This document shows positions 723-44,362 of a stretch of DNA of 64,000 nt, one piece after another; the first letter of the stretch is position 1, and each line of letters begins with the position of its first letter. Both the position numbers and the translations under genes were made by a program. The DNA lies in the NCBI RefSeq assembly GCF_041296385.1, contig NC_091023.1:10912924-10976923 (forward strand), given 5' to 3'. Source of the stretch: Aphelocoma coerulescens. Taxonomy: Eukaryota > Chordata > Aves > Passeriformes > Corvidae. The notes under the pieces were generated by a model. The model ran no database searches. It worked only from the letters and a program-made list of their open reading frames with translations, and was not told the DNA's origin.

Positions 723-1993
723 AACCTAATGCTCATGCACACAGTTTATTAAACGTGGTATCGAGTCCAGCCAGACATCACCCTCTCTTCCAGTCTACCC
801 TGGGAAGGAAAATGCATGTACTTCCATTTATATTAGCAGCATTGTGGAATACAGTAGTTTGTATTAAAATGTCCTTTTAGGTTTTAAATCTGTAGTACAG
901 ATGCTTTTGAATAGAAATTAAGTGAAATAATACAACTTTTAACTAGTACTATCAGACTATTAAGTTACAGTACTTAAGCAATCAGCATAATTTATTCTCT
1001 TTGTATATACTTAACCTGCAAAATCGCTCCAGAATAAACAAATTCTAACCTAAAAATATAATGTATTGCCATCTGTTATTCCAGAAGGTTGTTTCATGAG
1101 CTTTCTTTAGATAGTAACTCAAGTTATCTATATAAAAAGGTTTGGTTTGCATTTGATTAAAAACATTTTTTCCTTTCTTGCTTATAATAGAGTTTAAGGG
1201 CTTCTGTGGAGTTTATCAGCTAGGCGTGCCAATTCCTGTTAAATCTATAGATGCTTGAATGTCCAGCTGTTCAAAATTAGATTAGTGTTAACTTCTATTT
1301 TCTCCTATAGTATGGCACAAAAGGAAGGTGAAAACTGAAATTCTGTTTGAAATTTCCTTGGATTTTATTTTGTGGATACACTCTATGAATGCTATCTTCT
1401 TGACATTGGTATTGATTTTCCATATTTCTGTACTCTGATTTAGTTTTTTTAAAGACTGAATTTTCCAGTTAAATGAATTTATAAACCTAGCCAAAACTAT
1501 TCAAGTGGTGCCAACCAAAGTTCACCTGAGGAAGAAGCACTTTGTGTATGAGGAATTTGAATTGCCAATATGTTACAAGAATACCTTCTAATTTTTATTC
1601 CAAAAGAAATGTTCGGTTAGCCCACAAGTTCTAGATTTGGAAACTATCTGGTATTCTGTTCTTTATGGCTGTTTTTTCCTGAGCAGCCAGCACTGCAAAC
1701 ACTTAGGGTAAGCTGAAGTAGACTCCATCAGGTCATGCAGTTGTGAGTAGCAGCTTGTGTAAGAAGGACAGAAGTAGCATTAACAGGTACAGCTCTGTGA
1801 AGGTGGTTTGTAAAAGCTTGTTCAAAGACAACTTCCAATCATACAATAACATACAATTTTCTTCATGTAAAAAGAAGTACGTGGTAGGACATAACTCTTG
1901 GAGGCTGTCATGACCATGAATTCAGTTAATACATCTGTTTTTGTGTTTATTTCCCATATCCATTAACATGTTTTGTTCCTTTGCGATTTACAG
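723..1993 (+). other. AGFG1: AGFG1 intron, no recognisable features
   Basis: AT-rich intronic sequence between the LTR and the exon at 1994. I found no exon for the segment that precedes AQNSAN in human AGFG1. Confidence 0.6.
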
Positions 1994-7900: not shown

Positions 7901-10166
7901 TTGTGTGCACCTTGTCAACAGTTTGTCTGTATAATGTCTTGCCCTTGAATACTTTTGGGGTAAATTTTTCAACTGATAGTTAAGCTATATTCAATAAATT
8001 AATTTTATTAGCTTTTTTAAACAGTTGAGCTTGCATAAAATGTAGCTTGTAATATTTCAAAAGAGAAGTCCTGTTTAACTAGCATAGAATACCTGCTGTC
8101 TGTATTTGTACCAAAAATCCTCCAATGTACTTCTCTTTTAAAGAATAACTCCCAAAAGACTGAATAATGGTTTTGTTGCTGTACTTTTGCACCTAGTGTG
8201 CTTCTATTTATTTGCTGAAGGCATGGGGAAATGCCTATGAGCTGTGTGTTCTTTACTTGAAATGTTCAGCAGAGAATCAGATGAAAAGTTTTGGGTTCTT
8301 TTTGTTTTAAGTTCTACCTCAACAGTAAGAGGGTTTGCAACAGGAGCTTTGTGTGCCAATAGTGTGCATGGTGAGAATTTCCTTAAAGACATTAAAGATG
8401 GGATGAAAAAAGGGGATGCATGTATCCCTTTGATTTTTTTTTTTTTATATGACCTCCTGTAGTGCAGCTTGAAGTAGGAAAATCCTTTCATGCTTTTCTC
8501 AGAAGGAGAAAAACAGAGGGGGGCTTAGGCTGCCTGAACCTGCTTGCTTCTTACATGTACAGACTTCTACCAGAAAAACTGTGGGGAAAATATATGATAA
8601 CATTGAGAACAAAAAATATTTCCTCTTCCGAAAGAATATCTGATTGTGCTGGATCTACTAAATTTTAAATAACTTCATTCATTTTTAAAGTGGAAAAGTA
8701 AATTATGCACCCAGTTGGTGGTGATCTGAGTGAACAAATCAGTTCAGGGGCTGTAGAAGTTGAACGAAACTTTTGTCTGGTAACAGAGGGCATTAGAAGA
8801 CTTTTAACATGACCTTATAGTAATTTGTTCCATGGAAAAAGTGATTTCTTACAAATAATTGAATGTTATTTTTTGCCTATCAGCAGCAACATTTGGTACT
8901 GCATCCATGAGCATGCCGGCAGGATTTGGAACTCCTGCCTCCTACAGTCTTCCTACTAGTTATAGTGGCAACTTCCAGCAGCCCACGTTCCCAACCCAGG
9001 CAGCTTTCCCTCAACAGACTGCTTTTGCTCAGCAGCCAAATGGTAGGTCTGCATGTTTTAGATAATCTTGTCTAAATCAGAAACATGGAGAAAATGGTCT
9101 GTCTATAAGTTGGCAATAATGGGTGGATATTTATTTCTACATGACCTTGATAGTAATGTTGATGAAGGGTTCCCACACTCTTTTGGCTCTGTAGTTGAGC
9201 CTCTTGACTTGGCTGTGTGCCATTGTGTGATGACAAAACTGAAATTTGACCAAAATCTCATACTAAAATGGTAGGTGTTCCCAGGCTTAAAGGGGTTTTA
9301 AGCAAGAAGGGCTGTTTTGGAATGTGTGCAACTCATTATTACACTTTCTTGAACTTCATAGAATGCAGGGAAGAGAAAATTGAAAGTATTTTCTTCCTGA
9401 ATTTATATGATATCATAACATTGAAGAAAGTGCATATGTAGAAATTGGAGATTGATGAGTTACGAACAGTTGAAAAGCTCAACCATGGTGTTTTACGCTT
9501 ACATTCTTGATAATGTTTAAGTAGGATCAGTCCTGCTGATTCTGCAGTTCAAAATTCCGCTTAATTTTGGCTGGGAGCCGCAGCAAAGAACTCTTTGAAC
9601 ATTGTTTACTAGTATTAATATTTTTTACTTTTCTTTCCAAGGAGCAGGTTTTGCTGCATTTGGGCAAGCAAAGCCTGTAGTAACTCCTTTTGGACAAGTT
9701 GCAGCTGTTGGAGTATCTAGTAACCCTTTTATGGTGAGTTGTTGTATGTCAATGACTTCTGTATGTCCAAAGAATAGTCTGTAACACTTAATTTAGAGAT
9801 ACACAAAGATTTGGGGGTTTTCTTGCTTTTAGTAAGGGAAGGCAGCATGTAACTCTCCTAACTGCAGCTCACTATTGTGATGATATGCCATTTGTAAGGA
9901 TGTTCAGATCAAAGCAGAGGGACTTTTATACATGTTCTCACAGTAGTGTAATTCTAGAGAAGCAGCAAAAAACAGACTGTAATATAAAGCAGAAGTATTC
10001 CCCAGCAGGTTGTTTTCTTTTTTATATATTCTGCATTTATGATTTACAATATGGGAAAAAAAATCTTAAATACTTGCCTTATTTTTCTTCGTTGCTTTTC
10101 CCCCAGGCTGGTGCACCAACAGGACAATTTCCAACAGGAAGCTCATCAACCAATCCTTTCTTATAG
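1994..10166 (+). CDS. AGFG1: ArfGAP with FG repeats 1, C-terminal part (8 constitutive exons)
   Basis: AGFG1 is an endocytic and nuclear-export-linked adaptor whose C-terminal FG/NPF region binds EH-domain proteins such as EPS15 (family knowledge). Exons seen: 1994-2113, 3745-3954, 4807-4987, 5642-5721, 6014-6106, 8884-9042, 9642-9733 and 10107-10166 (stop TAG). Every junction is AG/GT and the phases join without a break, giving about 330 residues. The product runs co-linear with the human protein as I remember it, from AQNSANAGFANF to SSSTNPFL. It carries repeated NFxxFD/FG motifs, two DKYAAL segments and four NPF motifs, one at the extreme C-terminus. The N-terminal ArfGAP zinc-finger exons lie upstream of the window, so the gene is partial here only because of the window edge. 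An optional 72-nt exon and a tandem acceptor are listed separately. The gene converges tail to tail with transporter copy 1. Confidence 0.96.
2453..2495. repeat. Inverted repeat / hairpin in AGFG1 intron
   Basis: The left arm AAGTGTGTGCCTATGC pairs with the right arm GCATATGCACACACTT with one bulged base; the centre is TATG-rich. It lies about 245 bp upstream of the cassette exon. Confidence 0.6.
2738..2809 (+). CDS. AGFG1: AGFG1 cassette exon (72 nt, 24 codons)
   Basis: This segment follows a pyrimidine-rich tract and a CAG acceptor and ends at a consensus A|GTAAGT donor. It enters and leaves in phase 1, exactly like the junction between the exons ending at 2113 and starting at 3745, so including or skipping it keeps the frame. 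It would encode AFRTLSSSCSFGEFTSAF followed by PLQAVHS. FGEF and the Ser-rich context resemble the rest of the FG region. I recall that longer mammalian AGFG1 isoforms insert about 24 residues here; that is memory, not a search result. Confidence 0.82.
6107..8883 (+). other. AGFG1: AGFG1 long intron
   Basis: A 2.8-kb intron between NSRGAT and AATFGT. It holds a short TC/TA microsatellite near 7358-7382. I found no convincing extra exon: candidate acceptor/donor pairs near 7498 enclose only about 10 nt. Confidence 0.7.
7358..7382. repeat. (TC)n(TA)n microsatellite
   Basis: Short TCTCTC run passing directly into TATATA. Confidence 0.8.
8881..8886 (+). promoter_or_regulatory. AGFG1: Tandem NAGNAG splice acceptor of AGFG1
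   Basis: The acceptor reads CAGCAG directly before CAACATTTGG. Using the first CAG gives ...TAATFG as in human AGFG1. Using the second removes one alanine and keeps the frame. Confidence 0.7.
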
Positions 10167-14383: not shown

Positions 14384-17300
14384 TTAATGGGTAGTGCTTT
14401 CAGCAGCCACACTTGTATTTCCGCATTTGATGGAGATAATGGTGTACATGCTTCTGAGCAGGAAAATTCCAGCAATGACTGTGAAGTAGCTGCCATAAAT
14501 GAGAAACTGGGAAAAGGAGGTGGGGAAGGAAGAGAAAAGTTATTACCTAGTAGCAAAAGCGGTTTTTGACTCTAAGGGGTGTCTCTCCATTGCTGTATTC
14601 CCTTCTGTCACCTGTGCCTAGAATGACCGCATCTTGAAAGGACTCAAGAAGTCTGGACTGGTTGACTTGACACTATAGGAATTCTGTGGTTGTAAAAGGG
14701 GGAGATAATGTTCTGTTATGTATTTCCCTTCCCCACCTCAGTAAGGGAGGAAAGCTGTCCTGCACTTACTTTGTCTCTTCTCTCAAAACATGACAGCTAG
14801 AGACATAGACTCATTTACTGTCTGTGTTTAAACTAATTTTAGAAATTCAGCTGGGAATTTTGATGAGGTAATTTTCAGAATTACAGTAACTTTAAGGTGC
14901 ATCCGCTGGAGCTATGTAACTTAGAATTACCCTAGTAATAGACCCATAGATTGCCTTTTAGCTTGCTTCCTTCTTTGGGTTAGGGTATTTTGACTATAAA
15001 CTTGTGAACAGTAAGCCTTTCATTTAAAGAATGCCCATAGTAGTAGGGTGGTCACCTTTCCCACCTGTTCTGTGAACATATTCATAGAGTATTTTCTAGT
15101 CATCCCAGTATTGGGAGGTCTAGGGGACAAGCAAGCTGTAGTAGTTCACAGCAGTTCACTTTAAATGAACCTTTTTCCGAGAGAATAACTGTCCTGAGCC
15201 TTCCACCTGAGCTTGCACATTACCAAAGGCTAATCTTGGACTAGAACTTGCTTTCAAAGGAGAGCAGGGCAACGAAGCAGTGGGACTCAGTGGCTTACCT
15301 GAGTGGTGATATCCAGTCCCAGACCTCTTGAGTCTACTACAACAATAGTTAAAATGGTCTGAATCACCAGTGCAACAAAGTTGTTGAAGCCAAACATCAA
15401 GGCATAACGCTCCATGCTGAGGTTGACAGCAATCTGAAACCTGACAATGAATGCACAGGTTTACAAAACTGCAGAGAGCAAGGATGGATGGATGCACTTT
15501 ACTTACGGGAACACTTAAATGTGCAAAGTGCACTCTTCAAAGGACAAGGTCACTTCAGTCTTGGCTATTAAGCTTTGACAACTTCTGGCAGAAATTCCTT
15601 GGTTTTTTCTGGCTTTGTGACATTTGTGCATCCTATTTACCCTTGACTTGAACGAGTATTTTTGCTAAATACCTGTGTATGTTCAGTAGATCCCTTAGAG
15701 AATACTCATACATTGATCATTGAACAGCCAAGTGCAGAAGCTACCTTGTTCTGACTCGGAGTGTACTATGATAATGGTTAGGTTATATAATTTTAACCAG
15801 TTTTATACAGGCTAGAAACAATATATGCTGCTGTCATAACCTATTTAAATTTGTATCTAGGGCAATGTCCAGTAAAATTTTGGTTTAAAAAATTGATTTA
15901 AATCAGTTTAGTTAGAACAGTTGTGTGTTGTACTTACGTTGCTATTGTTATAAGGAGCATATAACAAGCTTTAAATGCAAGGTAACCAGCATAACATGCC
16001 CAGATGTTGTCAGTGAAGTGCATGAGAAGCAGAGAACCAGCATCCAGTACAGAGAAAATTGCCAGAGCCAGTTCTCCAGTGAGATCCCAGTTTACTTTGA
16101 CATATCCAACTGCCATGGATGTTGCTGAACCTAAAAATTGAAAAGTAGTAATTAAAACTCAGAAACATTATCTTTGAGAGCATAACTGTCATTGGGTCAT
16201 GCCAGGAGCTCTTCAGTCTTGGTCATAGTGGGCTTTGGTGATGGTGTGGATTGTATTTCCTGCTAGTGGTGTGGGAGTCTTCCATTAGTTTGGGTGTTTT
16301 CCTCCTTGCTTAGACCTTTCACTGACTGAAGTGCTCTGGGAAAGTTCCTCATGCCTGGGGCTGGAGGCCGCAGTGCACAATGTATTGTTGTTGCTCCATT
16401 TTTGGACATCTATGAGCAAAGAGAAGAACAATCCCACCAAGCATTTTCTGCCAAAATATGCATAATGAGTTTAGTTACTTCATGTAAAGTTCTTAATGGA
16501 ATGAAAATCTGTAGCGCCTCATGCTTGCTTTTTTATTGAAGTGTCTTTCCTGTTTCTGGTGCAAAGCCTCATGAACTGCATTTGTCAATGCCTTACTGAC
16601 CATCACATGTAGCAAAACCCTTACTCGAGTCTATTACAGTGTAACAAACCCTATGTTCTCAGGCAGGCTAGCACAAAAACTGGACTTTGTTTGCTGGTTG
16701 TATGTGCTCTTCATCAGAATTCTAAAAGTTGGAGCAAACCAACCCCTTTTGTCCATCCCTGCTATGAGCAGTGGTTCCCAGCGCTGTGAGTGCCTTCTCT
16801 ATTCTGAAATTGTGTCAAGCACCAGAGGGTGTAAATGCAAGAAAGCCTCTGGGAACACTACTCAAAGCAGTAGTCAGAAGACGTTCTGGAGTAGCTTCAG
16901 TAAAATTGATTTTTGTGCTGATTGCAGGGAGGAAAAATAAACTGACAACTCCCTGTGGAAGTGTGGGATACAACTCCTGGAATGAAGGGGGAGACAGCTG
17001 TGTAAGTGGGAGCTCAAAAAGGAGGTTGTATTTTGCTGCACAGCTATGTAAATGAAGTTTCACTTTACCCATATCCATCTCTCTGTGGCTAAAGAGAAAT
17101 GGAATTTGGGTGGACCAGATAACTCGCGAGAGACAGAATGGCTCAGGTTGGAAGAGAGATGGAGATCACCTGGCCCTGCTAAAAGCTGAGTCTTAGCTTT
17201 TACAGCTAAAGGAAGCTGCTCAGAATGGTGTCTAGGTTTTGACTAGGATGGAGAGTCCACACCTCTGGCCAACCTGTTCCTGTTTTAAATCATGCTTGAA

Positions 17301-20300
17301 TAAAAATGTTCTATGTTTAAGTGGAACTTGCTTGATTTTGTGCCCCTTGGCTCTTGTCCTGTCACTGGGCACCACTGGTAAGAGCCTGGTTCCATCCTCT
17401 TTGCTCCTCCCCTTCAGGTCTCTATGCACATTAATAAGATTCCTTCTTTTTCAAGGCTAAACAATTACAGTGCTCTCAGCCTTGTCATATTGCAGAAATG
17501 GTTTCATAGAATATTCTGAGTTGGAAGTGACCCACAAGGGTCACTTCACAAGGATCATCAAGTTGAACTCTCAAGTGAATGGGCCATAAAGAGATTGAAC
17601 CCACAACCTTGGTTGTGGTAAACTTGCCAATTAGGATATAGATGTAGTCACAGAACATTTGTTGAGGGGTACTTAGACTAGAGTGATTTTTAATCCACTG
17701 TCTAAATAGGCCATTTCACTGTATGCTCTGAGTCAGATTTAGAGCAGTGTATCTGCTAATATGTTCTTTTATTTCTTAAACCAGCCAGATTGAGGTGTAT
17801 TTAAATGAGGAACATGTAAGATGTCATTGCACAGGGGTTTGACGTGCTTACTTGGGGTTAAATTCATAGTCTAAACAGAGCTGTGAACTTAAAACTCTTA
17901 AAACATTTTGGCAGAATGAGGCTCCTCTAAGAAGGAAAAGCTTAGTTATAGATGTTTTTTAAGATTTTTTGAAGAGCCCACTGATAAAGTTTACTATAAA
18001 ATCATGCTTTGAACACTGTTTGGGTTTATCTCTCACCGTCTGTTTCCTTTGGTCCTCATAGGAGATGGAAAGGCACGAAAGACGTTGCTGAGGAATCCCT
18101 CAGCACAGGATGGGTTACAAGTACCTGCTAATGATTGCTTACCCAAAAAGGTTGCTATTGCTTCGACAGCTCCGTTGTACACTGCGGAGCTGTGGGACGG
18201 GGCTCGGAAGTCCCACAGCACCTGGACATAATTCACGACCTGGTTAAAGCCGGCCGTGGCCAGAGCCCACCACAGGGACCAGTAGAGGAGTTTGCGGGAG
18301 CTGTAGCAATCCCTCAGGTCCTTGGCCAGCTGCAGCAGCACGCTGAGCATGTGACTGTGAGGCCTGGCATTCCCAGCCTGGGGCTGGGGGGTCGGGCCCC
18401 TGGCAGCAGGGTCGGGGCTCTTTTGGCAGCTCAAGGGCCTGTGGGAACTGCCTGCAGCCACCCCTTTATCAGCCCCTGGGAGAGGCTCAGAGGTGTCTTT
18501 CCTGTGGAAGAACATGCTCCTCTGGGGCATGGGCAGGAAGAATGAGCACAGGAATGCCAGGGACACAGAAGCCAAGGTGATGGCGTTGAGGTAGAAGTAG
18601 GAGACGTGTGCTAAGGACACCAGCAGCTGTCCCAGCACGGCGGCCACGGTGGCTGCCACCAGAGTGACACTCCTGCAGTAGCTGGTGACCTTCTGGTAGT
18701 GCTGGGTGCTGACCACGCTGTAGATGTAGGCGTAATAGGCCACCTCGGTGGCTGTCACCATGCCATAGAAGAATTCCACCACCTGCATGGCCATGACTCC
18801 ATGTGCAAAGAGCAGCAGGAGCCATGTGATGATGAGGCTGAGGCCCTGCAGGAGGAGGACGGGCTTGTAGCGCACATAGTCTGTGAGCAGGAACACTGGG
18901 AAAAGGAGAGCAAGGTAGGAGTATGTCCAAACTGGGAAAATCTGGTTGGTAACCTAGAACAGAATAAAAGAGGAAATATTAAACAAACAAAACACAATCC
19001 CAATCCCCTAAACATTTAAAATATCCTTTCTGATGGGTTTTGATGGTGTTATTGCTGGAACGACATAGTTGTGATGAAAGGAAACATTGAATTGTGTGAA
19101 CAGTACACGTTTAAACTGCCTTAAGTTACAAGACTGTGACTTTGCTATGTAAGGGGCAAAGACAGCGATGCTATGCTCCACTAAAGAAACAGGTAGATTG
19201 GCTTAAAAATTAATTCTAGTAAAGGCCTATGAAGAAGGCAGGTTTTGATGTGCAGCTGTTTAAAGCAATTGTAACTTTGTGTCAGAGGTAAATCTCTCTA
19301 GTTTCAAATCCTATTCCCTACAGCAGCTGAAAATGAAGGCTGGTTTTGTTTTAACTTTTTATGTGAGTCATTGTATACCTTTGGTCACCTCTTTCCCTTA
19401 TTAGGTTTAGGAAAAAGAAAAAAAAGCATGCGTCCCTTACAATGGGGGAACTGGAACGGCACATAGTGTGTAGCTGCCACTGTGTTACTGCACCTTCTAT
19501 GTTTTTTTCCAATTTAAGAAATATGGAAGTCTTTCAATATGTTTACATTGGACTTTAATACATAGATGCCCTGTAAAGAAATTCTTTCTCTTTTTCTAAA
19601 ACTGTTTTGCATTTGGTTTGGAAGGTGCTGTTTGTGGTCACCACTAAAGCTCAGTGCTTGCCTGGGCAGTTTGGGCATGTATCCGTCTTTTAGATGCACA
19701 TCACAAAGGGACCTTTTTCTGTGACTCTGAGTTGCCTGTTTTGGGGGATGTCTTGCCCAGTAATTGTGGGGCCTGCTGGGATTTCTATTCCTGATCTCTC
19801 GTTCTCTGCTTAAGTAATTAGACTAGAAAGGAACTGTGTCAAATGCTGGAGGAATGCTTTTTCCTTCAGAGTACTGGAGGGAGTTGCATGGTGAGCAGCA
19901 GGTTTACTGTATCTTTCTGTGTGACTTCTTTTGTTTCTCTGAATTTAGAATTGCCTCATGGAATTAACTCACTGGAGGTGAATTTGGCTGAAAGAGACAG
20001 TATCTGTACTATGCTTGGTTTTGAGTTAAGGATTCTTGCTGAAATCAGAATTAAGGCATTCTATGATGTTATCGGTATGCTTTATATAAGAAAAAATGCT
20101 TGCCTTTGTGGTTAAAAAAATAATAATAAAAAAAGGGGAGAAAAAAACTCCCTGACAACCTAAACCACAAATACCTTTTTTCAGCAGAAACCTTGGGTTC
20201 ACAGTGTGCTGGTAGATTCTGTCTTAACATTTGCTACTGCACATCAGGAATGACTGTTCTTCATATTAGCTGTATGTGGGTGTAGCAAGCTTGTGTTTTC

Positions 20301-21043
20301 TAATTTTACTGTTAGCTCCATGACTCAGCCACGTGTTAACCACGTCCCCTTTCGTTGGAAGGTGTACTCCTGAAGCAGCCAGTGCTGAACGCAGGAGCAC
20401 AGCAAGGAAACTTGCAGTGCATGCTTTTTTTAAAAAAACCCAATTTTTCTGAATGTGAACCTGACCTCTGCAGGTTAATGAATGTGTAAAATGTAGGAAA
20501 TGTAGGAAATAAGCTTTACAGCTCATCAGGGGAAGGCTGCTTAGCTTTCTTATGATTTGAAATCAATGTGTTGCTGTCAGTGTAATCAATTCCATGGTAA
20601 GTATAAATAAATGTCAGTGTTACCCCTCCTCTGGGGTGGAGAGAGGAACTAGCTGACCTGATTTTGCCAAAAATATCAACCAGCAAAGGGCTTTCAAAAT
20701 CCTAAGACTATAGGGACTTTAAAGTTCGGACCTCCTGCCAAAGAGGTGACTCCTTACTCTTTTCCAGACGCATCTTAAATACGAGTCTCTAGATAAAATA
20801 TTCACACTTCGTCTTCCCTTCAGTTACTGCTGTAAGGCCTAATGCTTTAAGCATTTTAGTTAATGCTTAAGAGAATAGTTCCATACCTCTTCAATCGTTA
20901 GGTTTTTGTCTGGTCCTGTTAGATAGGGGGTGAGAAAAGATTCTGATGGCCTCATTGTGGTGAAAAATCCATTTGCACAGATGATCACTGTGGGATAAAT
21001 CCAGCTGCGGCTTACAGCTCCCTTCCAGCAATCCATAGTCTAC
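14384..21043 (-). CDS. SLC19A3-like: SLC19-family thiamine transporter, copy 1 (complete, 472 aa)
   Basis: A twelve-helix major-facilitator transporter of the reduced folate carrier family. By homology to human SLC19A3 it should move thiamine across the plasma membrane. Coding exons on the - strand: 20887-21036 (ATG at 21036-21034), 18143-18953, 15938-16130, 15299-15440 and 14384-14506 (stop TAA). All have AG/GT borders, and phases add up to 50+382+40 residues against about 496 in human SLC19A3. The first coding exon has 7 nt of 5'UTR after a T-run plus CAG acceptor (21044-21046), so a 5' non-coding exon must lie upstream. Residues that are substrate-related in human SLC19A3 are kept: Glu32, Trp59, Glu110, Tyr113. 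The KNLT glycosylation site at Asn45 is also present. Differences from copy 2 include Pro33 to Ser and a short tail ending ESTTH. The gene sits where human C2orf83 lies, between AGFG1 and SLC19A3. Function as a thiamine carrier is inferred. Confidence 0.93.
17125..17500 (-). mobile_element. CR1 LINE 3' fragment
   Basis: Reverse-oriented CR1 3' region: GAATGGCTCAGGTTGGAAG at the left, then the typical 'CTTGTCCTGTCACTGGGCACCACTG' and 'CTCTCAGCCTTGTCAT' landmarks. Lies in intron 2 of copy 1. Confidence 0.8.
17504..17625 (-). mobile_element. CR1 LINE 3' end, second subtype
   Basis: TCATAGAATATTCTGAGTTG followed by a GGATCATCAAGTTGAACTC-like stretch and 'GATTGAACCCACAACC'. A short internal duplication of the CACAAGG segment is visible. 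Directly abuts the CR1 at 17125-17500. Confidence 0.75.
18151..18959 (-). repeat. Copy 1 side of a near-identical 809-bp tract
   Basis: Matches 31300-32108 base for base except C at 18198 against T at 31347 (silent, Pro CCG/CCA). The tract covers exon 2 apart from its last 8 nt and runs 6 nt past the acceptor side. Flanking introns do not align by eye. Confidence 0.97.
18960..20886 (-). other. SLC19A3-like: Copy 1 first coding intron
   Basis: AT-rich intron with no repeat or gene recognised; sequence unrelated by eye to the matching intron of copy 2. Confidence 0.6.
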
Positions 21044-21140
21044 CTGAAAAAAAAAAAAAAAAGCTGTCAAAGGAATGAATAGACACTCTTCATAGTTGGT
21101 AAAAATTCATTTTCAAGTTTACTTTTTAACTAAACCTACA

Positions 21141-21161
21141 CCCCCCACCCCCCCTCCCCCC
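21141..21161 (-). repeat. G-quadruplex-prone C/G tract upstream of copy 1 start codon
   Basis: C6-A-C7-T-C6 on the + strand, so G6-T-G7... tracts on the coding (-) strand, about 105 bp upstream of the copy 1 ATG and just 5' of its acceptor. Runs this long can supply four G3 tracts. Confidence 0.75.
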
Positions 21162-24100
21162 AAAGCCATAATCACCACTGAGAGCTGTGGTGGTGGCATC
21201 CAGTGTAACTGGACTTCAGGGGATAGGTGGCAGTGTGACAGCCAAGGGCTGCCTGCAGAGGTGACTCATATATCTGGCTGGTGTGCAGATGTAACCAAAC
21301 CACTTATCTCAAGCTCTCCTGCATTGTGTTGCACACCTGGATCTCTTCTTAGGGAGATCTCACAGTTACTCCTGAGGCTGAGATTCTATGCTGCAGCACA
21401 TTCTTGGTTAAATGAGTGTGCTCAGCCTTGAAATCTTGGCTAAGTCATAGAAAGAATTTATTGCACATATTGCATAATCCTTTAGACAGAAGCAGTTGAC
21501 CAAATCTGAGACTAGGAGTGGCTCTAAGGTGCACCTAGGCTCCTCTCTGAGAGGAGTTTAGAACTCACTGACTTCATGGGAGGGTCTCTCTCACAGTTTT
21601 ACCTGATCTGTCCTCTCTGCATTAAGTCAAGCACACCTTCCTGTTGAGTCTTGTTAAACTACTGTCACATTTACCACTGAACTTTGTTACATCAATAAAG
21701 GCCATTCTTGCTTCTATCTTGTGAGTGAAGTCTATGGGTTCAGCTGTGCCACGTGCCTAAACCAATATTCTTCTCACTGAACCTGCCTGGGATCACAGCT
21801 TCAGCCTGTAAATGAGCAACTGGGATCAAGGTGCATCAGCCCTGGTAAACTCTGTATTGTCTGTCAAAGGTTGTTCTTAGTGATGTGCTTAGGTCTGAGT
21901 GGCTGTGCTGTAGCAGGAGAATAAAGTTCTATTACAATCTCATTTCTGAATAAATGAGTGGGTGAACTGTGAGATTAAAGCTCATTCCGTGTGCTCAAGG
22001 AAGTTTTTCTGTTGATCTGCAGCCTGAGTACTCAGTGACACGATGACAGTGCAAACGTTCTTGATGGCAATAAAAGCCATCAGGCAGCTCAACCCATTGT
22101 GAGCTCAATTTCTTCAAAATGCTTTAATACTCATCATGTTTCTTGCACTCCAGTCATTGGAGAGGGTAAAGAAAGATGCAGAAACTATCTGCTCATGATA
22201 CCTTCTCAGACTTAGAAATACTGACTTCACTACTGGAAGTGATGACCAAAAGGAAAAGGAGACTTGCTTCTTCACTGTAGTTGACAGCAAAAAGAAGTCT
22301 AAAGAGAATTGGTTTTTTAAGTTTATTTTACTTGTTTTGTATTAAAAAGTCAATTTCCCTGATCCTGAAAACAAGTGAAACAATGTTTTCATTTATAAGC
22401 GATTGAAAACAAAGCACCAGCTGATGTTTAATCATACTATTACAAGCTGTTTATTTTAAGTTGTTGAATTCCATTCTATAGCAGGCACTTTTTCAAAAGT
22501 GCTTCTACTTGTACTGTGAGATTGTATTCATTAAAACTTAGCATAAATTTTATGTTATAAAGACAATATTTCTGTGACCTCAGAGGAATGTTAGAAAAAG
22601 CAGCCCTAACCTTGAAACAGGATTTTAAAAATTACCTCTGCCATCTTTCTCTTACAAATAATTGTAAATAAAATATAGCCTCTAGTATCTTTAACTCAAG
22701 ACCTGATTTGAAATGTTTTGATAAAAACATAAAAATTAAACCTTGGGCTGATCAGTAACATCTGCATAAAATCTTGCATTACCTCCAAATGCACTGAGCA
22801 AGTGAGTAGCCAGCATACTCCCAAATAACTCCAAAGGTGATGAATTACCTGTCAAAGCTGTGGCTGTGGTGCATTTCCTGTGGATTCAGGTGCAGTTCTT
22901 CCTAGGATGACTTTGTCTTGCAGAGAAGTCAGAAACCACCCTTTAGAGTTGGTGGTAATCAGAAATTTCTGTAACTGTTTTTCCAGAAAGTTCTTTCTAA
23001 ACTTTATAAAATGTTACCAGAATTTAAATAATAATAATAACTTGTCATAACTGTTCTTCTTGCAGAACTTGTCCATGAAGTTTGCAGGGAAAACATTCTT
23101 TACAGGTTTTGTCAGCAAACTGAGTTCTGTTTTTAGGATAAAACTATAAGACTCCCGGAAGCTAATGATTAATAAAACTTGTGACCAGAAAGCAATCAAT
23201 GATTGCATTCTTTGTTAATAAATACCTTTAAAAGCTCTGGTCTCTGATTCATGGGAAGACAAGAGCACCAGTTTTACAGTTTGAGCTAACACTGTCCCTG
23301 TCCTGTGCATAGTACAGAGGCCTCTGGGCTTGTGGGGTCTCCTCTGACTGTCCTGGTTTTGCTGGGGCTTTGGGAGGTAGGACATCAAATGCCTCATATT
23401 ATTAGTTGTCCATTAATTACTTCTATATAGGGATGGATCTGCCATTTAAGGACAAATGGACAAGACAGTAAGCTGCTAAATCTATATTCTAAGCTAAAAA
23501 ATCAACAGGCTTGCTTCAGAGAAATGCTGCTGCTTTGCTTTCCTTTACCCATTTTTTTTAGACTGGACTGCCTGCATCTTCCAAGGGTCATCAGAGGCTG
23601 GAGTTCATGCTGAAGCCTGTTGGTAGGACGTGTGTTTGACCCTGGGAGCAGATGCTGAGGCCCTGGCAGGAGGGGCCCCTTTGTGAGCTCGACAGAGCCT
23701 GGTCTGGTCCTGCAGGTATGGAAGGTTTCCTCAGTACTCAAGTGTGTGGTGCAACCAGGCAGGCAAGTGCTCAGGGGAGCCAGGCTTGCTTCTGCCCTTC
23801 ATTCTCTTCCCTGGCCAAGAGCTTCTGAGTCATGGAAAGAATCTTGGGAAGGGAAGGTGCTGCTGGGCAGGGGCTGAAAGGGGCTGCTGGCTCGTATTTC
23901 CCTGGTAGCCCACACAGTGCTTGGGCAATACCTGCATGCTTTGATTACAAACACGCTATTTGTTCCTTCCTTGTTTGCTCAAACCGGTCTTATCAGCTTG
24001 CTGGACTGTATCTTCACGGAAGCTTTGTGCCCAAACCCACAAATGTTTCAAAGATAATTAGTGTTTTATTTAGAGGGGCTTGCAGCTATTGGGAGGAATG

Positions 24101-25810
24101 TGCCCAGCTCTAGAGTTCCATGTTTGCATGGAAACCTTTAACATACTGGAAGAAAGACAACACTAAAAACTGCTAGGAGAGGTGGATGTGTTGAGACTTT
24201 CCTTTTCCTGCAGATCTAGACAGCCTGTGATTCCAGCCTTGCTCGTAACCTGCCAAGTCTCAACTATCTCCTCTCCAGAGTGTGTGTGTGCAGGTACATG
24301 AACACACAGGTAGATGTGTACATCTTACACTTTTAGATGAAACCTCTGATTGCTGGATGAGTTCTGATTTGCACCTGAAAACCCAGGATAACATAAAGCC
24401 TTGCCTTTTTCCTCCTAACACTCCTAAGAGCTGCCCTCTTCCTACCCTATTTCCCCTATAATGCTGCCTACCAGCTTCCAACTTCAGAATTATTATTTTG
24501 AGATTAGAGAGAATAGGAATGGATTATTTTTTCTTTAAAGTCTTATCTGTTTTCTGAAGATGGTATTCTCTAAAGCTGCAAGCCAAATACATTTTGTCTG
24601 CTTGGTTCCTTTGCTCCTCAGTGGCATCCCACAGATACAGAGAGCAGTGAGCTCTAGCCAGAACGTAAGAATTTTTATGGTTGGTTGTATGTGGTTTTTT
24701 AGCTCTAGTCTACTGAACTAAATGGCATTATGTTTTTTAACAACAGCAAAAAGTTTCACATGTTGTTGATTCCTTTCCATTTGTCAGATATTGCATGGAA
24801 ATATTTGTTAACTTTCTGTACCAAAGGCAGTTTGAGACCAAGGAGTTGAAAATACAAAGTTCCTCTTTTTAATTTAAATACAAACTCTAGTTAACTTCTA
24901 GTCCAGGACTGACACCTAGTTCTAAATGGAATGTCTCAAAAGGAGTTCCTGCTGACAAGGAAGGATAGAAAAAACAGTCCTTGCACTCCTGGAGTCTGTC
25001 CCTGAATCTTCAGGCAGGAGCATCATGCCCTCGGTTCTGCAGTAATAAAAGATACTCCCTGCTCAGTGGAGACTAAGTACATCTCCCACTTTTATGACTG
25101 CATTGGTTAAACTGTTCTGCTTAGAGCCAGTTTACAACAGAGAATGTCCCCACAGTGCACAATAGTAAACAAAAAGCCTAAAAAAGTAGCCAGGATCTTC
25201 ATTTTGTCAGATCCTACTGATTGTTCTTGTGACTTGAAACAAATTGCTTCTGTCCTGCCTGCCCTCACATCTGGGCACTTTGTCTAGTTGCAGTGTGTGA
25301 CAGTAGTATGAAAAGCAGGTACATCTGTACAAATGATAGCTTGTGTCCCTACAGAAAAAATAGTATTCTGTAAATGCTAAGCATTTTTTATTAGTTAGAT
25401 GTAGATATTGGAAGCTAGAAACAAACAGCAGTACAGAAATAACTTTAGCATATGGATATAGTTCATATTAAATTAGACATTCGCTATGCAAACTAATTTC
25501 TAGTCTCTTTTTTCTTCTCCTGGACTGTCTTTTGGACTAAATTAGCTGTAGGATTTGAAGCTTCTTGACAAACTCTGAGATGCTGATCCTGCCAAATTCT
25601 TGGGCAAGATCAGTGGACCTCCCTCACTTGGCACTCAAAAGCACATGATGCTAGCTGTTTATTTCAGTTATAAATCTTCTTGGCTATTCCTATTAATCTG
25701 GAATTTTCCTGTATGGAATCAGCTATATTTCTTCACAGTGTACTTCTCTGGTTTTAGTCTGTGCTACTTAAGGCCCTTGATATTTTTTCTTTTCCTGCTG
25801 AAAGAGGAAG
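21162..25810. other. Non-coding DNA between the transporter copies
   Basis: Should contain the promoter and 5' non-coding exon of copy 1, but I cannot place them. No further transporter exon and no other gene was recognised. Confidence 0.5.
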
Positions 25811-25831
25811 ACAGTCAGTCCTGAATTTAAA

Positions 25832-26550
25832 TTTATTGGAAGCACAAGCAAAGGAATGGTGCTCTTTCTTTTTTTTTGGACCCTGAAGTTATTCCCTCCT
25901 CGGCAGAGGTTGCTGTGAAGCCAGTACAGTGTTTGCAGCTCTCAAATGTGGGCCAAGCAACAACCACAGTGTAACAGTGTTGCAGTGAAGCTCCCGGGAT
26001 GGGTTGTGCAAGCCCTGCTTTCTGCAGCCTGTATGCACAGAGACGTGGGATGAGACAGGAGGAGCCTGTGCCCCATCTGCCTGTACTGGGTATGAAAGAA
26101 TATAATGATGCAAACACTTCCTTGGTTCAGAACGAGGGCTGTGCAGAGGGGGGTCAGACCCTTCAGCCACTGAATCAGCAAATATGATGGAAGCAGCTTT
26201 GCTAGTGCCACATTCAGAGCTACAATGAGCAGGGCAGGGTGAACTCTGCACTCTGCCATCGTGCACAAGGGGATGCAAACGTGGTTGCTCTGATTCTGTG
26301 TATAAATTACTGCCCTTAAGCTATTTATAAGCATGTAAATAAGAATCTAAAGGAACTTATCTTTTGTTCTTGGCAGAGTGCCATTCTGGTGAGCTCTCTG
26401 CTGGCATATGTTGTGCTGAAGAGCTGGAATGATTCAGTGTAGCTTTTCAGGGCTGAGTCGAATGTTCTTGCACTGCTGTTCCCTGCATGCTGCTCTTCTT
26501 CTCTGCTGGGAGCCCTTCTCCCAGGAGGGCCTGGCCAAGGAGCCTGCCTC
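25832..26550 (-). other. SLC19A3: SLC19A3 copy 2 3'UTR and polyadenylation signal
   Basis: On the - strand CCAATAAATTT is found at 25839-25829 (AATAAA 25837-25832), about 715 nt after the stop codon. Long open frames here on both strands lack any domain or splice support and are read as UTR. Confidence 0.55.
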
Positions 26551-29500
26551 CTACAGCTGTGTTATGGAGCTTGTGACAATCTGCTCTCTTGACTCGTGCT
26601 CAGCCTGGTTCAGCTGCTCTGTGCAAGATCTCGCTATTTTCCTTTGGCATTTGCATGAGACCAGCACACAAATGCTTCTGATCATGAAAATCCCGTGTAT
26701 GACTGCGAAGTAGCTGCCATAAATTAAAAACTGGGAGGAGAAAAAGGCAGAACAATTAATGAAAAACATGTTAGAGATATGCTGCTTCTTTGGAGATGAC
26801 AGTCACTCTTTTTTTCTTTACTTGTGTTCTGACAGTTTCTCTACGTTTGAGAATTTGCGTTGTGATAAAGCAAAATCTCAGCTTTGTGAACAGCATTGTG
26901 AAATGAAGAACTGCCCCTTTCTTCCATTCCTTATGCCTCTTAATAAATGTCAGATGGGGAGAGGGATAAGAACAGGATTTTTTTTTCTATTAGTGCAAAA
27001 TGTAGTAGCAGCTTCATTACCCATGTAGTCATGAATCTATGTGAAGGGTCTGAGTTCATCCTTGTTTTGCTTTTGTACATTTCAGTGCTGTCACCACAAT
27101 GGCTTCAATAAGTACACTGTGATTTTATATCAGTATTTCCAACAACAGTGGCAAGGCTGTTTACGAAGTCCTACATATTCCTGTCCTTAATTTTAAAGAT
27201 TTAATGTTTGTGTCAATCTTTACTCTTTCAAAGTCACTTTTGCTTTCTCTGTGCAGAGTATGAATAGTTTTAGTCTTCTTCAGATCCATTAGAGTAGACA
27301 GCTGCCCCAGCTGAGAGCCCGTCTGAGAAAATGCAGAAGTCAGTAGGTTTCAGTTGACTTCAGCCTGAGTGACATTGGGTTGACTGAAGATAGGGACACT
27401 CTTGTAAGACAGAATATCCCATCCGAAATGGAGTGCCCAAGCTATGGGCAGAAGACTCTATCGTACATGTTGAGATACAGACCAGGTTTGCTCTCGAGCT
27501 AGAAGTAGAAATTTCTTGAGCTGAAATAACTCATATAATCCAGACTGTGTCTCATAATTTTGAACCCCCATTCTGCATCTGACAAAACCAGTCTGAGCTT
27601 TTGGGAAGAGATGTTGTTCAGCATCCTATTAGTTACCAAAACTGGTCAGATAGCATAGCCTGGTTAATTATGTTCTGGTGTATCTCCCTTTAAAAGTCAA
27701 AGACCAGCATCTTTAATCCTAAATGCATTAAAAAGCAAAAAGGAGGAATGATGACAAATGATGATGAACAATGACAAGGGAAGAACAAGATGTCCGGATT
27801 TCTATGGAAGAAAGAGGAATTAAGTTGTACTTTGGCACAGGAATTTCTTTCTTGGTAAACTTTTGAAGATGACTTGGCTGAGCAGTAAATAGGAAGCAAG
27901 GTAACAGCGCTTACCTGAGTCACTATGTCCAGTCCCAAACCTCTTGAATCTACAACAACAATTGTGAGAATGGTCTGAATCAGCAGGGCAATGAAGTTGT
28001 TCAATCCAAACATCAGGGCATAGCGTTCCATACTCATATTGACAGCGATCTGGAACCTAATGGGAGACTGGCAGGTCAGTCACTTCCCACTGGGAAAGCT
28101 ATTGCTGTCTATCAGTCAATGAAGAGAAAATGATCAATGGAGATGGTGCATCAAGGATAGAGGAAATGGTGCTTCATTTGGTTGTTTGGTTCCTTGCTCT
28201 CTAAAAAAAAAAGTCTGGGGTACCATAGTGTATTTTAATGTTTTTTTTGAACTGGCATGGGCTGCTTTTCCAACCCACGCTATCAGGTGATCAGGTAGAA
28301 TGTCAGTTCTCTGTACCCTCCCCTTTTGTTCCTTTGCCTTCACAGACTGCCTCTGACAGGCTGTGAAGTGTCCATGGCTGGAAGCTTTCAGAGACCTGGC
28401 CAGGCAAGGTTGTGACCTGCTCTGGCACTGGCAGCAGTTCTGCCCTGGCTGGGAGGTTGGGCTTGAAGGTCACTGTGGGTATCTTCTAACCAAACTTTCT
28501 GCGGTGGTGAGTCACATTTTGCTTTGTGACTTGACAGTGGAGGTAACATGCTGCTTATTTCTGTCAAGAGTCTGTAGATTTTACTTGCAGTATCTTTTTT
28601 GATAATAATCAGAACGTCTTTCCTTGCAATATAGACCTCCAAAGTTTCTATACAAACAAAAGGGTGTTATTCCTTCGAGACTCATTTTCAGTTATTTTAG
28701 CTTGGGGTTTTTTTTGCAAGATTTTACTTTGTTGGGGTTTTTTTCCAGAATATATTGAAATAGTCCAGGTGTAATTCACTATAATGTACTAACAATCTAC
28801 CAAAATGAAAATAAAGGGCTCACTTGGCTTTCTTCAAGATAGGCATAACCTTGCCATGCATTATAATTTTGGCAGCTTTTAAAAATGGTATCTGAATAAT
28901 TTTGGGGTTTGACAAAAAATGCATCTAGTATTTTTGTTAATGAAATAGTGTGGTATGTCTAAAGACATTCTAAGCAATAAAATGACTGGAGCAATAACGT
29001 TTTATATTTATTACACAGGATAAAATATTTGTTATTAATATTATTTATATATTTCTGTTTCTGACAACAGAATAGCTTGGTCTCCTATGAGATCTTGTCT
29101 GAGTTTATACATCCAATGTTCCCTTTCATTCCTTCTCTACATCTTAATATCAGTAATGATTATATATAAGAAAGTATGTTGGGGAACACTCTATGTTGAA
29201 TCTTTTCCTGCATTCATGCAGTTCATGGCATGCTAAAAGGTTTATCAGAAGGGGGTCTAGACATATGGTGATCTTAAAGGATGGCTTGTCCCCTATTGTT
29301 CACTCTGCATCTTTCTTGCCAGGAAGGAGCGAAATGGCTTCTACATTTTGCTGTTAGTAATTGCCTTTAGTAATAAAGTTATCTTGTACCTTGTTTAATT
29401 TCTGCTTAGGTAAATGTTTGATGTCCTTTTGACAATTTTTCTTTCCTGGTTGTTTGGAAGAATGAAAACAACATAACCAGACATTTAAATGTCCTTGTCC

Positions 29501-32500
29501 TTACCTAAACAGTTATGTCTAGCATTAGGTCAGCTACCTTGGAGGAAAAGGATGCCCAAAGCAAACTCGAAGTAAGGTCAGTATTCTGTGCATGATGGCA
29601 GCACTGTGATATTTTGTACTTACGTTGCTATTGTCAGGAGGAACATATAGCATGCCTTGAAAATGAGATAGCTAGCATAACATGCCCAGATGTTGGTAGA
29701 GAAGTGCATGAGAAACAGACAACCAGCATCTATTGCAGAGAAGATCCCTAAAGCCAGTTCACCAAATTGGTCCCAGTTAATCTTCATATATTGTACTAGG
29801 AAAGATGTTACTGAGCCTAGAAAAAGAGAAAAAACATGTGTAAAAGTTGTATCTGTTCCACAGCTTGTATGACCAAGTCTTGCCAGTCTCACATGCTGAA
29901 AGGTGATGCTGAATAATGAAGCAGAGTAGTCTGAAGTTTGAAAGCATTTCTAATGACTTCTGCAGCTGTGCAGATGACTGGTCATTTTAAGACAACTGCA
30001 TAAATCAAGTCTCTGCCATTCCGTCCTTGGTGTTTTATTCCACTTTACAGGATAAACTGTAATGTAGAAGGATTCATTATTCAGGTGTCTGTTCACAGCA
30101 TGTGTCTCTGGGGAGAGAATCAGGAACATGGTTTGGAGTTCAAGAAGGAATTTCTTCCAGCTTCTCCTAGTTGGAAGGAGAACACAACTAGGCTAGTAAA
30201 CCTTCGATTGTAACAGTTTAGCTCTGGGCACCTCATAGAGGGGGTAAACTGTCAAAAAAGTGAGTTTTGAGGTGTCAAGGATGGATATCCAAGGAAATGG
30301 GAAAGGATTGGTTTGCTTTTGGTGGGGCTCCTAGAAGATGCATCTGTTGCAAAGTTAAGCCATTTGACTGCCCATCTTAGGGGTCCCAGACAATTTTAAA
30401 ACTTCTATACTTATACACTGAGAAAAAGGCAAGTCCACGAGAGAGAGAAATTCATCAAGGAGTAGATACTCCAGGAGGGCTTCTAGTTCATTATTTACTT
30501 GGTCTATTTAGTTTCCCACTGCAAGAGTAGTATCTGTTTCTCCTTAATGTTTGTAAGGGTAACCCGAATGACCAGGTGTGGTGTAGAGGTGTTTATTTCT
30601 CCTGGTAGAATACACCCCAATGTCTTGTGCAAGTTCTTTACAGCAGCACAGTGTGAGACAAGGCAGGGTGCTATCCTCTGATGTTACCTTTTGATAACCT
30701 CACTTTGCTTGTGCGGTGTGAGCATCTGCTCCTGATGCAAAAGAGGAATGGTTCACGTCAGTATCATAAGGATTCAACAGGGTCTTTTTTTTCCCCCTGC
30801 AAATCTTTGTATCCTGCAATGACTAGAATTTTTCTTTTTGTCTGGTTGTACAAGGGTATTTCACTAGAAAAACATCTTAACCAGAGGATGATGTACTTTC
30901 TGTGTAAAATTTTTATGAAAAACTTCTCTCATCTGTGTAAGCTGATATCATTGTTATGGGAACAGTGCAATACTTGTTTTGGGGAAAAAAAACACCAAAT
31001 AGCCTCATCCAAAGAAACATGGGTGCTTCTGAATGGATTTACCAGCTATATGCAATGTCTTTGGGACTTGCACATTTTCTGCATGCTGGTAAGATACAGT
31101 TATTTGTCCGGTCCTAAAGAAAAACCAACATAACTCACATTTGAACTGTTGTACAGCAAAGACCTAGGTCTGGAATGCACAGGATGTGCACTGGCTCCCT
31201 GGAGCGCCTGCAATGGAATGGCACTTTGAAAGTTTACTAAAGTGAAACTTCAGAGGCTGTCATTGTGATCAATGTTTAAACATCAACTTACTCAGAAACG
31301 TTGCTATTGCTTCGACAGCTCCGTTGTACACTGCGGAGCTGTGGGATGGGGCTCGGAAGTCCCACAGCACCTGGACATAATTCACGACCTGGTTAAAGCC
31401 GGCCGTGGCCAGAGCCCACCACAGGGACCAGTAGAGGAGTTTGCGGGAGCTGTAGCAATCCCTCAGGTCCTTGGCCAGCTGCAGCAGCACGCTGAGCATG
31501 TGACTGTGAGGCCTGGCATTCCCAGCCTGGGGCTGGGGGGTCGGGCCCCTGGCAGCAGGGTCGGGGCTCTTTTGGCAGCTCAAGGGCCTGTGGGAACTGC
31601 CTGCAGCCACCCCTTTATCAGCCCCTGGGAGAGGCTCAGAGGTGTCTTTCCTGTGGAAGAACATGCTCCTCTGGGGCATGGGCAGGAAGAATGAGCACAG
31701 GAATGCCAGGGACACAGAAGCCAAGGTGATGGCGTTGAGGTAGAAGTAGGAGACGTGTGCTAAGGACACCAGCAGCTGTCCCAGCACGGCGGCCACGGTG
31801 GCTGCCACCAGAGTGACACTCCTGCAGTAGCTGGTGACCTTCTGGTAGTGCTGGGTGCTGACCACGCTGTAGATGTAGGCGTAATAGGCCACCTCGGTGG
31901 CTGTCACCATGCCATAGAAGAATTCCACCACCTGCATGGCCATGACTCCATGTGCAAAGAGCAGCAGGAGCCATGTGATGATGAGGCTGAGGCCCTGCAG
32001 GAGGAGGACGGGCTTGTAGCGCACATAGTCTGTGAGCAGGAACACTGGGAAAAGGAGAGCAAGGTAGGAGTATGTCCAAACTGGGAAAATCTGGTTGGTA
32101 ACCTAGAAGAGGAGAGGAAATACCAGTGTTTTTATTGTTGAGGAAAGGAAGTTCATGTATTTTAAATGGTGTTGTAGAGGGAAGTTTTTTCTCTGAAGGA
32201 ATTCATAAAATATATAACCACATTGAATCAGCATGGGACTGTTGGGCAGACAAATGGATCCTGTATCCATTAAATGGATCTATTATTTATGCAGTCTGCT
32301 GCAAACTGTAACCTGCCAGAGCTGGTTAAAATTGTGCGCTTTATTTTTTTCCTTTTTATCTTTGTTTAAAAATTTTAAAGAATGTTTTCCCTTTCTATTT
32401 TCACTACTTCAATTAAAACAAATCGTAGAGTAAAATCATACCTCATCTGTGGTCAGGTTTTTATCTGGTCCTGTTAGATAGGGTGTTAGGAAAGGTTCTG

Positions 32501-32607
32501 ATGGTTTCATCATGTAGAAGAATCCATAGAGGCAAAGGATCAGGGTGGGAAAAGCCCAGGTGTTGGTTTTTCCTTGCTTCCAGCAACCCATGGCCTCTGC
32601 AGCAAAG
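26551..32607 (-). CDS. SLC19A3: Thiamine transporter SLC19A3, copy 2 (complete, 491 aa)
   Basis: Membrane carrier of the SLC19 (reduced folate carrier) family; human SLC19A3 is thiamine transporter 2. Coding exons on the - strand: 32442-32591 (ATG at 32591-32589), 31292-32102, 29624-29816, 27915-28056 and 26551-26730 (stop). The first four have exactly the lengths of copy 1 (150, 811, 193, 142 nt), the borders are AG/GT, and the total is 50+382+59 residues. The N-terminus reads MGCWKQGK. Glu32, Pro33, Trp59, Glu110 and Tyr113 of the human numbering are present, as are the NLT sequon at Asn45 and the TDYVRYKP loop. The tail is longer and more polar than in copy 1, ending SSITQL. Acceptors at 32608 or 32597 leave a short 5'UTR, so a further 5' exon is expected. 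Position next to CCL20 matches human SLC19A3. Exon 2 is virtually identical to that of copy 1. Confidence 0.94.
29817..31291 (-). other. SLC19A3: Copy 2 intron 2
   Basis: Non-coding. An open frame of 150 codons at 30681-31133 on the opposite strand shows no family resemblance or splice context and is not called as a gene. Confidence 0.6.
31300..32108 (-). repeat. Copy 2 side of the near-identical 809-bp tract
   Basis: Partner of 18151-18959 at a constant offset of 13149 bp. One base differs in 809. Exons 1, 3, 4 and 5 and all introns of the two genes are clearly diverged. Confidence 0.97.
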
Positions 32608-43461: not shown

Positions 43462-44362
43462 TGTCTTGACCCTGGCTGGATGCCAGGTGCCCACCCAAGC
43501 TGCTCTATCACTCCACTCCTCAGCTGGGCAGAGGAGAGGTAAATAAGGAAAGGCTCTGAGATCAAAATAAGGGCATGGAGAGATTACTCACCAATTGCCA
43601 ACACAGGCAAAACAGATTCAACTTGAGGAAATTAATTTATTAGCAATCAAATCAGGGTAGGACAATGACAGGTAAGATCAAACCTTAAAACATCTTCCCC
43701 CCACAACTCCCTTCTCCCTGGGCTTAACTGTACTCTCAATCTTCTCTACCCCCTTCCCCCAGCTGTTCAGGGGTATGAAAATGGGGGGTTTGGTCAGTTC
43801 ATCACGTTACCTCTGCTGCTCCTTCCTCCTCAGGGGGAGGAATCCTCACACTATCTCCCTGCTCCCACATGGGCTCCTCTCTCCATGGGGCCACAGGTCC
43901 TGCCGGGATCCTGCTGCAGTGTGAGCTTCCCAAGAGGTCACAGCCTCCCTTGGGCATCCACCTGCTCTGATGTGGAGTCCTCCAAGGGCTGCAGGTGGAT
44001 CTCTGCTCCCTCATGGGCTGCAGGGGCACAGCTGCCTCACCATGGGCTACAGGGGAATCTCTGCTCTGGCACCAGGAGCAGCTCCTGCCCCTCCTCCTGC
44101 ACTGGCCTTGGGGTGTGCAGAGTGGTTTCATATATCCATCCTCCATATATTCACTCTTCTCTCTGGCTGCAGTTGCACAGGGCTTTTTTCCCCTTCATAA
44201 AGACATTATCCCAGAGATGCTACCATTGTTGGTGATGGGCTCAGCCTTGTCCACTGAGTCCTTCCTTGGAGCCAGCTAGCATTGGCTCTGCCAGACATGG
44301 GAGAAGATTCTAGCAGAGAATCCACCCCTGGTGCCTACCCACTACCAAAACCCTGCCACACA
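43462..44362 (-). mobile_element. Solo ERV LTR (about 900 bp)
   Basis: Begins TGTCTTGACCCTGGCTGG and ends CCCTGCCACACA, giving TG...CA ends. The interior has repeated 'CATGGGCTGCAGG'-type units and a T-rich stretch near 44186. Read on the - strand it starts with TGTGTGGCAGGGTTTTGGTA, matching the LTR at the window's left edge. I saw no target-site duplication and no retroviral genes alongside, so it is called a solo LTR of an avian ERV family, probably ERVL-like. Open frames inside it are not genes. Confidence 0.72.

Follow-up and report, generated by a model that had tools for sequence, protein, structure and literature searches.

How can two neighbouring genes be almost identical across a single exon when the remainder of their coding sequence has diverged and their introns no longer match? 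The question is raised by a 64-kb stretch of the Aphelocoma coerulescens genome (64,000 nucleotides of contig NC_091023.1, analysed as a whole and hereafter called 'the window'), the minus strand of which carries a tandem pair of intact SLC19A3-type genes, gene A (14384–21036) and gene B (26551–32591). In our reading, which we hold with high confidence, the pair was duplicated before the split of living birds and its second coding exon has been homogenised by recurrent interlocus gene conversion. The observation stands, and the process is a known one; what is unusual is the confinement to one exon, the duration, and the shared evolution of almost the whole substrate pocket.

Near-identity of the two genes is confined to exon 2

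Compared directly, the 809 bp at 18151–18959 of gene A and at 31300–32108 of gene B (both minus strand) differ at a single base, C at 18198 versus T at 31347 when read on the plus strand, a silent change within a Pro codon. This tract is bounded on each side by a differing base; in the 600 bp beyond it, taken in 50-bp blocks without gaps, 9–21 of 50 positions match. Set against coding exon 2 (minus strand; 18143–18953 in gene A, 811 bp, encoding residues 51–320 plus the first base of the next codon; 31292–32102 in gene B), the tract falls 8 nt short of the donor end and extends 6 nt past the acceptor end. The last 8 nt of the gene A exon (18143–18150, minus strand) lie outside the tract and differ from their gene B counterparts (31292–31299) at three of eight positions, bringing the A–B differences in exon 2 to four. 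The window sequence contains no N.

Working along both genes from the start codon (all exons on the minus strand), we see that protein identity is 31/50 in coding exon 1 (20887–21036 in gene A, encoding residues 1–50 and followed by a GT donor, as placed by alignment of A to human SLC19A3; 32442–32591 in gene B), 270/270 in exon 2, 45/65 in exon 3 (15938–16130; 29624–29816), 42/47 in exon 4 (15299–15440; 27915–28056) and 15/24 in the compared part of exon 5, which ends with the stop codon (14384–14506; 26551–26730). At the nucleotide level, a self-comparison of the window by blastn (E 1e-8) returns five A–B exon pairs and no match between introns: a block of about 841 bp at 98.7%, covering exon 2 and its edges, and blocks of 212, 150, 155 and 65 bp at 74–85% over the other exons. 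At most one of the 138 A–B differences found among 1368 aligned coding bases falls in an 803-nt block, the chance of which is about 10^-55 under random placement; the block was chosen post hoc, and allowing for some 570 placements the probability is still near 10^-52. An initial annotation of the same DNA had described the 809-bp tracts with their one silent difference, the 8-nt and 6-nt offsets of their ends, identities of 31/50 in exon 1 and about 45/65 in exon 3, an exon 5 diverged past its first residues and introns that cannot be aligned; our measurements confirm this description.

Homogenisation extends to the silent sites. In the window, from which all of our DNA-level comparisons are drawn, silent divergence (dS) is 0.015 in exon 2 (three silent differences over 196 silent sites, of which one is inside the tract and the other two belong to the final 8 nt of the exon), as against 0.67 in exon 1, 0.78 in exon 3, 1.00 in exon 4 and 0.59 in the opening 24 codons of exon 5.

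Exon 2 groups by species, the other exons by gene

The initial annotation had suggested a check: if conversion is at work, paralogues in other birds should cluster by species on exon 2 and by gene elsewhere. We ran it on proteins, drawn from searches that each list the best 120 rows at 90% clustering, so that the species set is a sample. All 12 species for which the matches listed include an A-type as well as a B-type protein were compared alongside the window, giving 13 pairs that range from ostrich to sparrows. Each row was assigned to A or B according to how closely its exons 1 and 3 match those of the window genes; 7 of 111 database bird rows (truncated, chimeric or ambiguous) could not be placed in this way and were excluded from the A and B sets. 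Corvus brachyrhynchos, emu and budgerigar have three rows each, of which one A and one B row were used. The emu B row (P0089) was assigned by exon 1, its exon 3 being about equally near both window genes, and falls in the B clade. The Limosa A protein lacks a proper exon 1, making that comparison unusable for Limosa, and gap columns in the pairwise exon 2 comparisons number 15 for Corvus, 47 for Egretta, 34 for Opisthocomus and 2 for emu. A fish protein of 829 amino acids (P0121) was excluded from the alignment, and P0037 and P0044 from the counts of composition and variability.

Within species, exon 2 proteins are 97–100% identical (emu, at 94%, is the exception), with the same pairs falling to 58–70% in exon 1 (without Limosa) and 66–83% in exon 3; A and B nonetheless have distinct exon 2 proteins in 9 of the 12 other pairs. 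On the exon 2 tree of the 13 pairs, the A/B label needs 13 changes, the maximum for 13 pairs and all forced by starred branches; twelve pairs are drawn together, four being identical, seven starred as well supported, and Corvus more weakly supported at 84/65. On the tree of exons 1+3+4 the label needs one change, the A clade being supported at 100/99 and the B clade at 99/97. A single A clade on exon 2 is rejected (p-value of the approximately unbiased test, p-AU, 6e-7, identical rows left free). In a wider set of 106 bird proteins, the label requires 31 changes on exon 2, of which 20 are forced (shuffled mean, 35.4), and a single one on exons 1+3. Paralogues within a species are hence closer than orthologues in exon 2, and the flanking exons track the duplication tree, as expected of concerted evolution; the suggested check comes out at 13 changes against 1.

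The same boundary is seen residue by residue. At variable sites, departures from the consensus are common to both copies in 410 of 448 cases in exon 2, compared with 4/231 in exon 1, 2/218 in exon 3 and 7/76 in exon 4. Pooled A–B mismatch drops at the start of exon 2 from 0.24 (residues 41–50) to 0.01 (51–60) and climbs at its end from 0.04 (311–320) to 0.49 (321–330). Within the exon lies a loop that is far more variable between species than the rest (mean identity ~54–56%), its within-species paralogues having a mean identity of 98% and a minimum, in one pair, of 78%. Outside the loop, exon 2 varies between species about as much as exons 1 and 3; constraint is therefore no explanation of its identity within species. 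Residual exon 2 differences lean towards the 3' edge, where the final 12 of the exon's 270 residues contain 5 of the 24 (p 0.004 in a post hoc test that leaves out 14 emu differences at residues 201–219, set aside after being seen); such a lean is expected if tracts seldom reach the exon end.

Ostrich and emu copies nest within both the A clade and the B clade, which places the duplication before the living birds. As to its age relative to turtles and crocodiles, free trees do not keep all bird A and B rows together, with turtles joining A at 89/78 (exons 1+3+4), and the single crocodile row used (P0140) takes no firm position; holding all bird A and B rows together is, however, not rejected (p-AU 0.138 and 0.132). 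The initial annotation's reading, an old duplication with conversion of exon 2, is thus upheld by exon 2 clustering by species and exons 1, 3 and 4 by gene. Its description of the conversion as very recent or ongoing can be extended: to judge from these proteins, exon 2 is homogenised in each of the 13 sampled species, and the process is accordingly recurrent and not only recent.

Three bird gene models (P0002, P0029 and P0046) combine exon 1 of B with exons 3–4 of A. Exon 5 is also of A in P0029 and P0046, that of P0002 being not clearly assigned; P0046 comes from the budgerigar, for which distinct A and B models exist as well. Unequal crossing-over between the exon 2 copies would leave fusions of this kind, but the same arrangement of exons would result from read-through splicing or from a mistake in gene prediction.

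Exon 2 is rich in G and C at third codon positions

The G+C content of third codon positions (GC3) is 0.77 in exon 2 versus 0.34–0.58 in the remaining exons, again in the window, and is raised in both genes (gene A: 208/270 in exon 2 versus 90/202 in the other exons, p 5e-13; gene B: 207/270 versus 114/221, p 8e-9); intron G+C content is 32–42%. Protein composition was compared between 24 reptile rows and up to 113 bird rows (the window's two included), in statistics that ignore the kinship of rows. Outside the loop, exon 2 of birds has more Gly/Ala/Arg/Pro than that of reptiles (0.204 vs 0.175) and less Phe/Tyr/Met/Ile/Asn/Lys (0.231 vs 0.284), and within the loop the shift is larger (0.377 vs 0.166 and 0.139 vs 0.279). 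Exons 1 and 4 show almost no shift in either class, and exon 3 a slight rise in both (0.202 vs 0.180 and 0.333 vs 0.304). The rise of the one class and drop of the other fit GC-biased repair limited to exon 2, the direct GC3 measurement being that of this window.

How the state could be maintained

We propose that exon 2 of one gene serves as template for the exon 2 of its neighbour during recombination or repair. Vertebrate recombination is thought to need a few hundred base pairs of near-identity. Of the homology that is left, only the 811 bp of exon 2 would have both the length and the similarity required: between introns no match survives, and the blocks over the other exons (~65–212 bp at 74–85%) would fall below the threshold and be left to diverge. 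That exon 2 alone exceeds the homology length needed would account for tracts stopping near the splice sites, with no need for a signal at those sites. Each conversion would restore the identity required for the next, giving a self-sustaining state, and GC-biased mismatch repair in the course of conversion would raise GC3 in exon 2. At a rate of 2e-9 per site and year, one silent change over ~193 sites dates the last conversion to ~1.3 million years ago (0.03–7), an order-of-magnitude figure.

Several points weigh against this account. Both the length threshold and conversion itself are inferred from sequence. The evidence from other species is protein, taken from deposited gene models of which some are incomplete or chimeric; the DNA is that of this window. 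Agelaius, Limosa and Melopsittacus, three of the 12 other pairs, have identical exon 2 proteins, and a model reusing one genomic exon is possible there. The emu pair (P0032, P0089) sits at the base of the exon 2 tree without forming a resolved pair, and has 16 exon 2 differences, 14 of them in a loop patch at residues 201–219. For the 106 bird proteins, the single label change on exons 1+3 is partly built in, as the rows were sorted by those exons, and comes from a tree of few columns. The emu patch looks like an error, or as if one copy had undergone a local frame shift.

Alternative explanations

Might the identity be an artefact of assembly, polishing or annotation, with one true exon 2 written into both loci or gene models reusing one exon? 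The evidence is assembled sequence, and the chimeric deposited models (P0002, P0029, P0046) show that the two genes can confuse pipelines. The two copies differ, however, at one base of the tract and at three of eight bases at the exon 2 edge, and are set within non-matching introns; a recent artefact would not, moreover, raise GC3. The initial annotation had itself cautioned against an assembly or polishing error, a caveat now weakened by 12 other birds that behave alike, 9 of them with A–B differences in exon 2 that mark the two as separate exons. We judge this explanation very improbable.

Conversion could also have used the reverse-transcribed mRNA of one gene in place of the neighbouring gene. 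The tract coincides almost exactly with an exon, and its edges alone cannot separate the two types of donor. Identity nevertheless extends 6 nt into intron 1 (although these bases are acceptor-like and may match by chance), the remaining exons were not carried along, and the neighbouring gene, only 13 kb distant, makes a simpler donor; we therefore give a cDNA donor very little weight.

Purifying selection acting by itself to keep exon 2 alike, an idea that gains from most pocket residues sitting there, is improbable in the extreme, and is ruled out for the window by silent sites that are nearly identical as well and by a fast-changing loop that varies between species yet matches within them, with an exon 2 tree that tracks species. 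Independent recent duplications in each bird lineage, as exon 2 taken alone would read, deserve next to no credence, being ruled out by the remaining exons: the tree built from exons 1, 3 and 4 gives one A and one B clade, and each clade contains copies from ostrich and emu.

The thiamine pocket lies almost entirely within exon 2

Thiamine contacts in human SLC19A3 are given, in excerpts of the structural report, as Glu32, Phe56, Trp59, Glu110, Tyr113, Leu296, Asn297 and Glu320, together with the backbone of residue 36 (PMC11447181). Bird exon 2 holds every one of these positions except Glu32 and residue 36; the initial annotation had placed Trp59, Glu110 and Tyr113 in the exon, correctly, and the statement now extends beyond those three to nearly the whole pocket. 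Both window genes retain Glu32, Trp59, Glu110, Tyr113, Asn297, Glu320 and Lys380, and have Thr at residue 36 versus Ile in human.

With nearly the whole pocket in the shared exon, changes to it are common to both proteins. In Myiozetetes, Opisthocomus and Prinia both copies have Leu at position 56, and in Limosa both have Tyr there. At position 290 (human 296) the residue, either Val or Leu, agrees between the copies in 13/13 pairs; at position 151 the copies of Egretta differ. Outside exon 2, nine sites carry different A and B letters, each kept in at least 90% of A and of B rows (for instance Tyr/Phe14, Asn/Tyr22 and Arg/Lys29); at sites 326 and 329 the ostrich and emu B copies are still unlike other B rows. 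Under recurrent conversion of exon 2, almost the whole thiamine pocket would evolve as one sequence in both proteins as the N- and C-terminal parts stay gene-specific, the likely outcome, on present sequences, being a pair of transporters that have their pocket in common and differ towards both ends.

A further step is tentative, and we put it at less than an even chance: that the exon has been a self-sustaining homology island throughout living-bird history, with the pocket a shared module in two frames, changes in the pocket (Phe56 to Leu or Tyr, for example) appearing in both at once, and selection for a common pocket with different frames helping to hold the arrangement.

Residue 151 itself is Ala in the window and in 49/53 A and 50/51 B bird rows, and Ser or Thr in 22/24 reptile rows; in human SLC19A3 it is Tyr, and is discussed as a binding-site position in the same excerpts (PMC11447181).

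Identity and integrity of the two genes

Gene A encodes 472 amino acids and gene B 491, both reading frames being open, with GT-AG introns between the coding exons. Both proteins match the Pfam family PF01770 (Folate_carrier) over residues 11–435, at 590 and 589 bits against a cut-off of 27, placing both genes in the SLC19A/reduced folate carrier family. A comparison with solved structures (PDB), made for gene A, finds thiamine transporter 2 (SLC19A3) closest at 678 bits, ahead of thiamine transporter 1 at 540 and the folate transporter at 362; the alignment to human SLC19A3 (PDB chains 8s4u, 8z7r and others) spans residues 1–460 of 472. A Corvus brachyrhynchos protein corresponds to gene A and is identical to it in exons 1, 3 and 4. 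As regards copy number, the window holds two such genes, and both types are present in 13 species, that of the window among them. Birds differ from the human SLC19A3 in having two tandem copies, transport by the bird proteins being predicted from sequence.

Relation to known cases of concerted evolution

Concerted evolution has been described for the mammalian pairs BMP8A/B, DDX19A/B and TUBG1/2 (Carson and Scherer 2009, PMC2720389). In the excerpts of that study to which we refer, these too are two-copy pairs with part of the gene homogenised, theirs having converted for more than 100 million years, and two of the three have raised GC3 in the converted part, as exon 2 does here. The mammalian tracts include introns, whereas the avian SLC19A3 pair shares one exon alone; a single-exon case would escape the Carson–Scherer screen because it required at least one highly similar intron. 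Persistence in many lineages was argued there to be a sign of selection, the reason being left open. Another known case is that of avian TLR1A/B and TLR2A/B, duplicated bird genes with converted and diverged parts in one protein and independent events in several lineages; in the portion of that report cited, which covers 4 birds, mapping placed the tracts in the receptor domains of genes of innate immunity (PMC3125219). Unlike the TLR pairs, the SLC19A3 pair has borders within 8 nt of splice sites, encodes a vitamin transporter and is represented by 13 species pairs. A literature search on avian SLC19A3 conversion or duplication turned up no paper, as judged from listings and with most subscription papers and bioRxiv outside its coverage; a search for C2orf83, a related human neighbour gene, likewise gave none.

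The avian exon offers a natural test of the limits on gene conversion, in that length threshold, GC bias and persistence are testable in birds. Whole-protein orthology calls, gene trees and RNA-seq counts for avian SLC19A3 may mislead, and pocket variants can pass between both genes. Amprolium is used against coccidia in poultry, so the shared bird pocket may have practical weight. The structure of this compound in the human SLC19A3 pocket has been solved, according to the same structural excerpts (PMC11447181).

Other features of the window

On the plus strand, at ~1930–10160, lie reading frames rich in Phe-Gly, Ser and Ala, which we take to be putative exons of AGFG1; a Pfam scan of three of these short frames gave no match. 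Two further repeat pairs are present, 61580–61710 with 62772–62898 (78% alike) and 229–612 with 43858–44256 (67% alike), both of them probably interspersed repeats.

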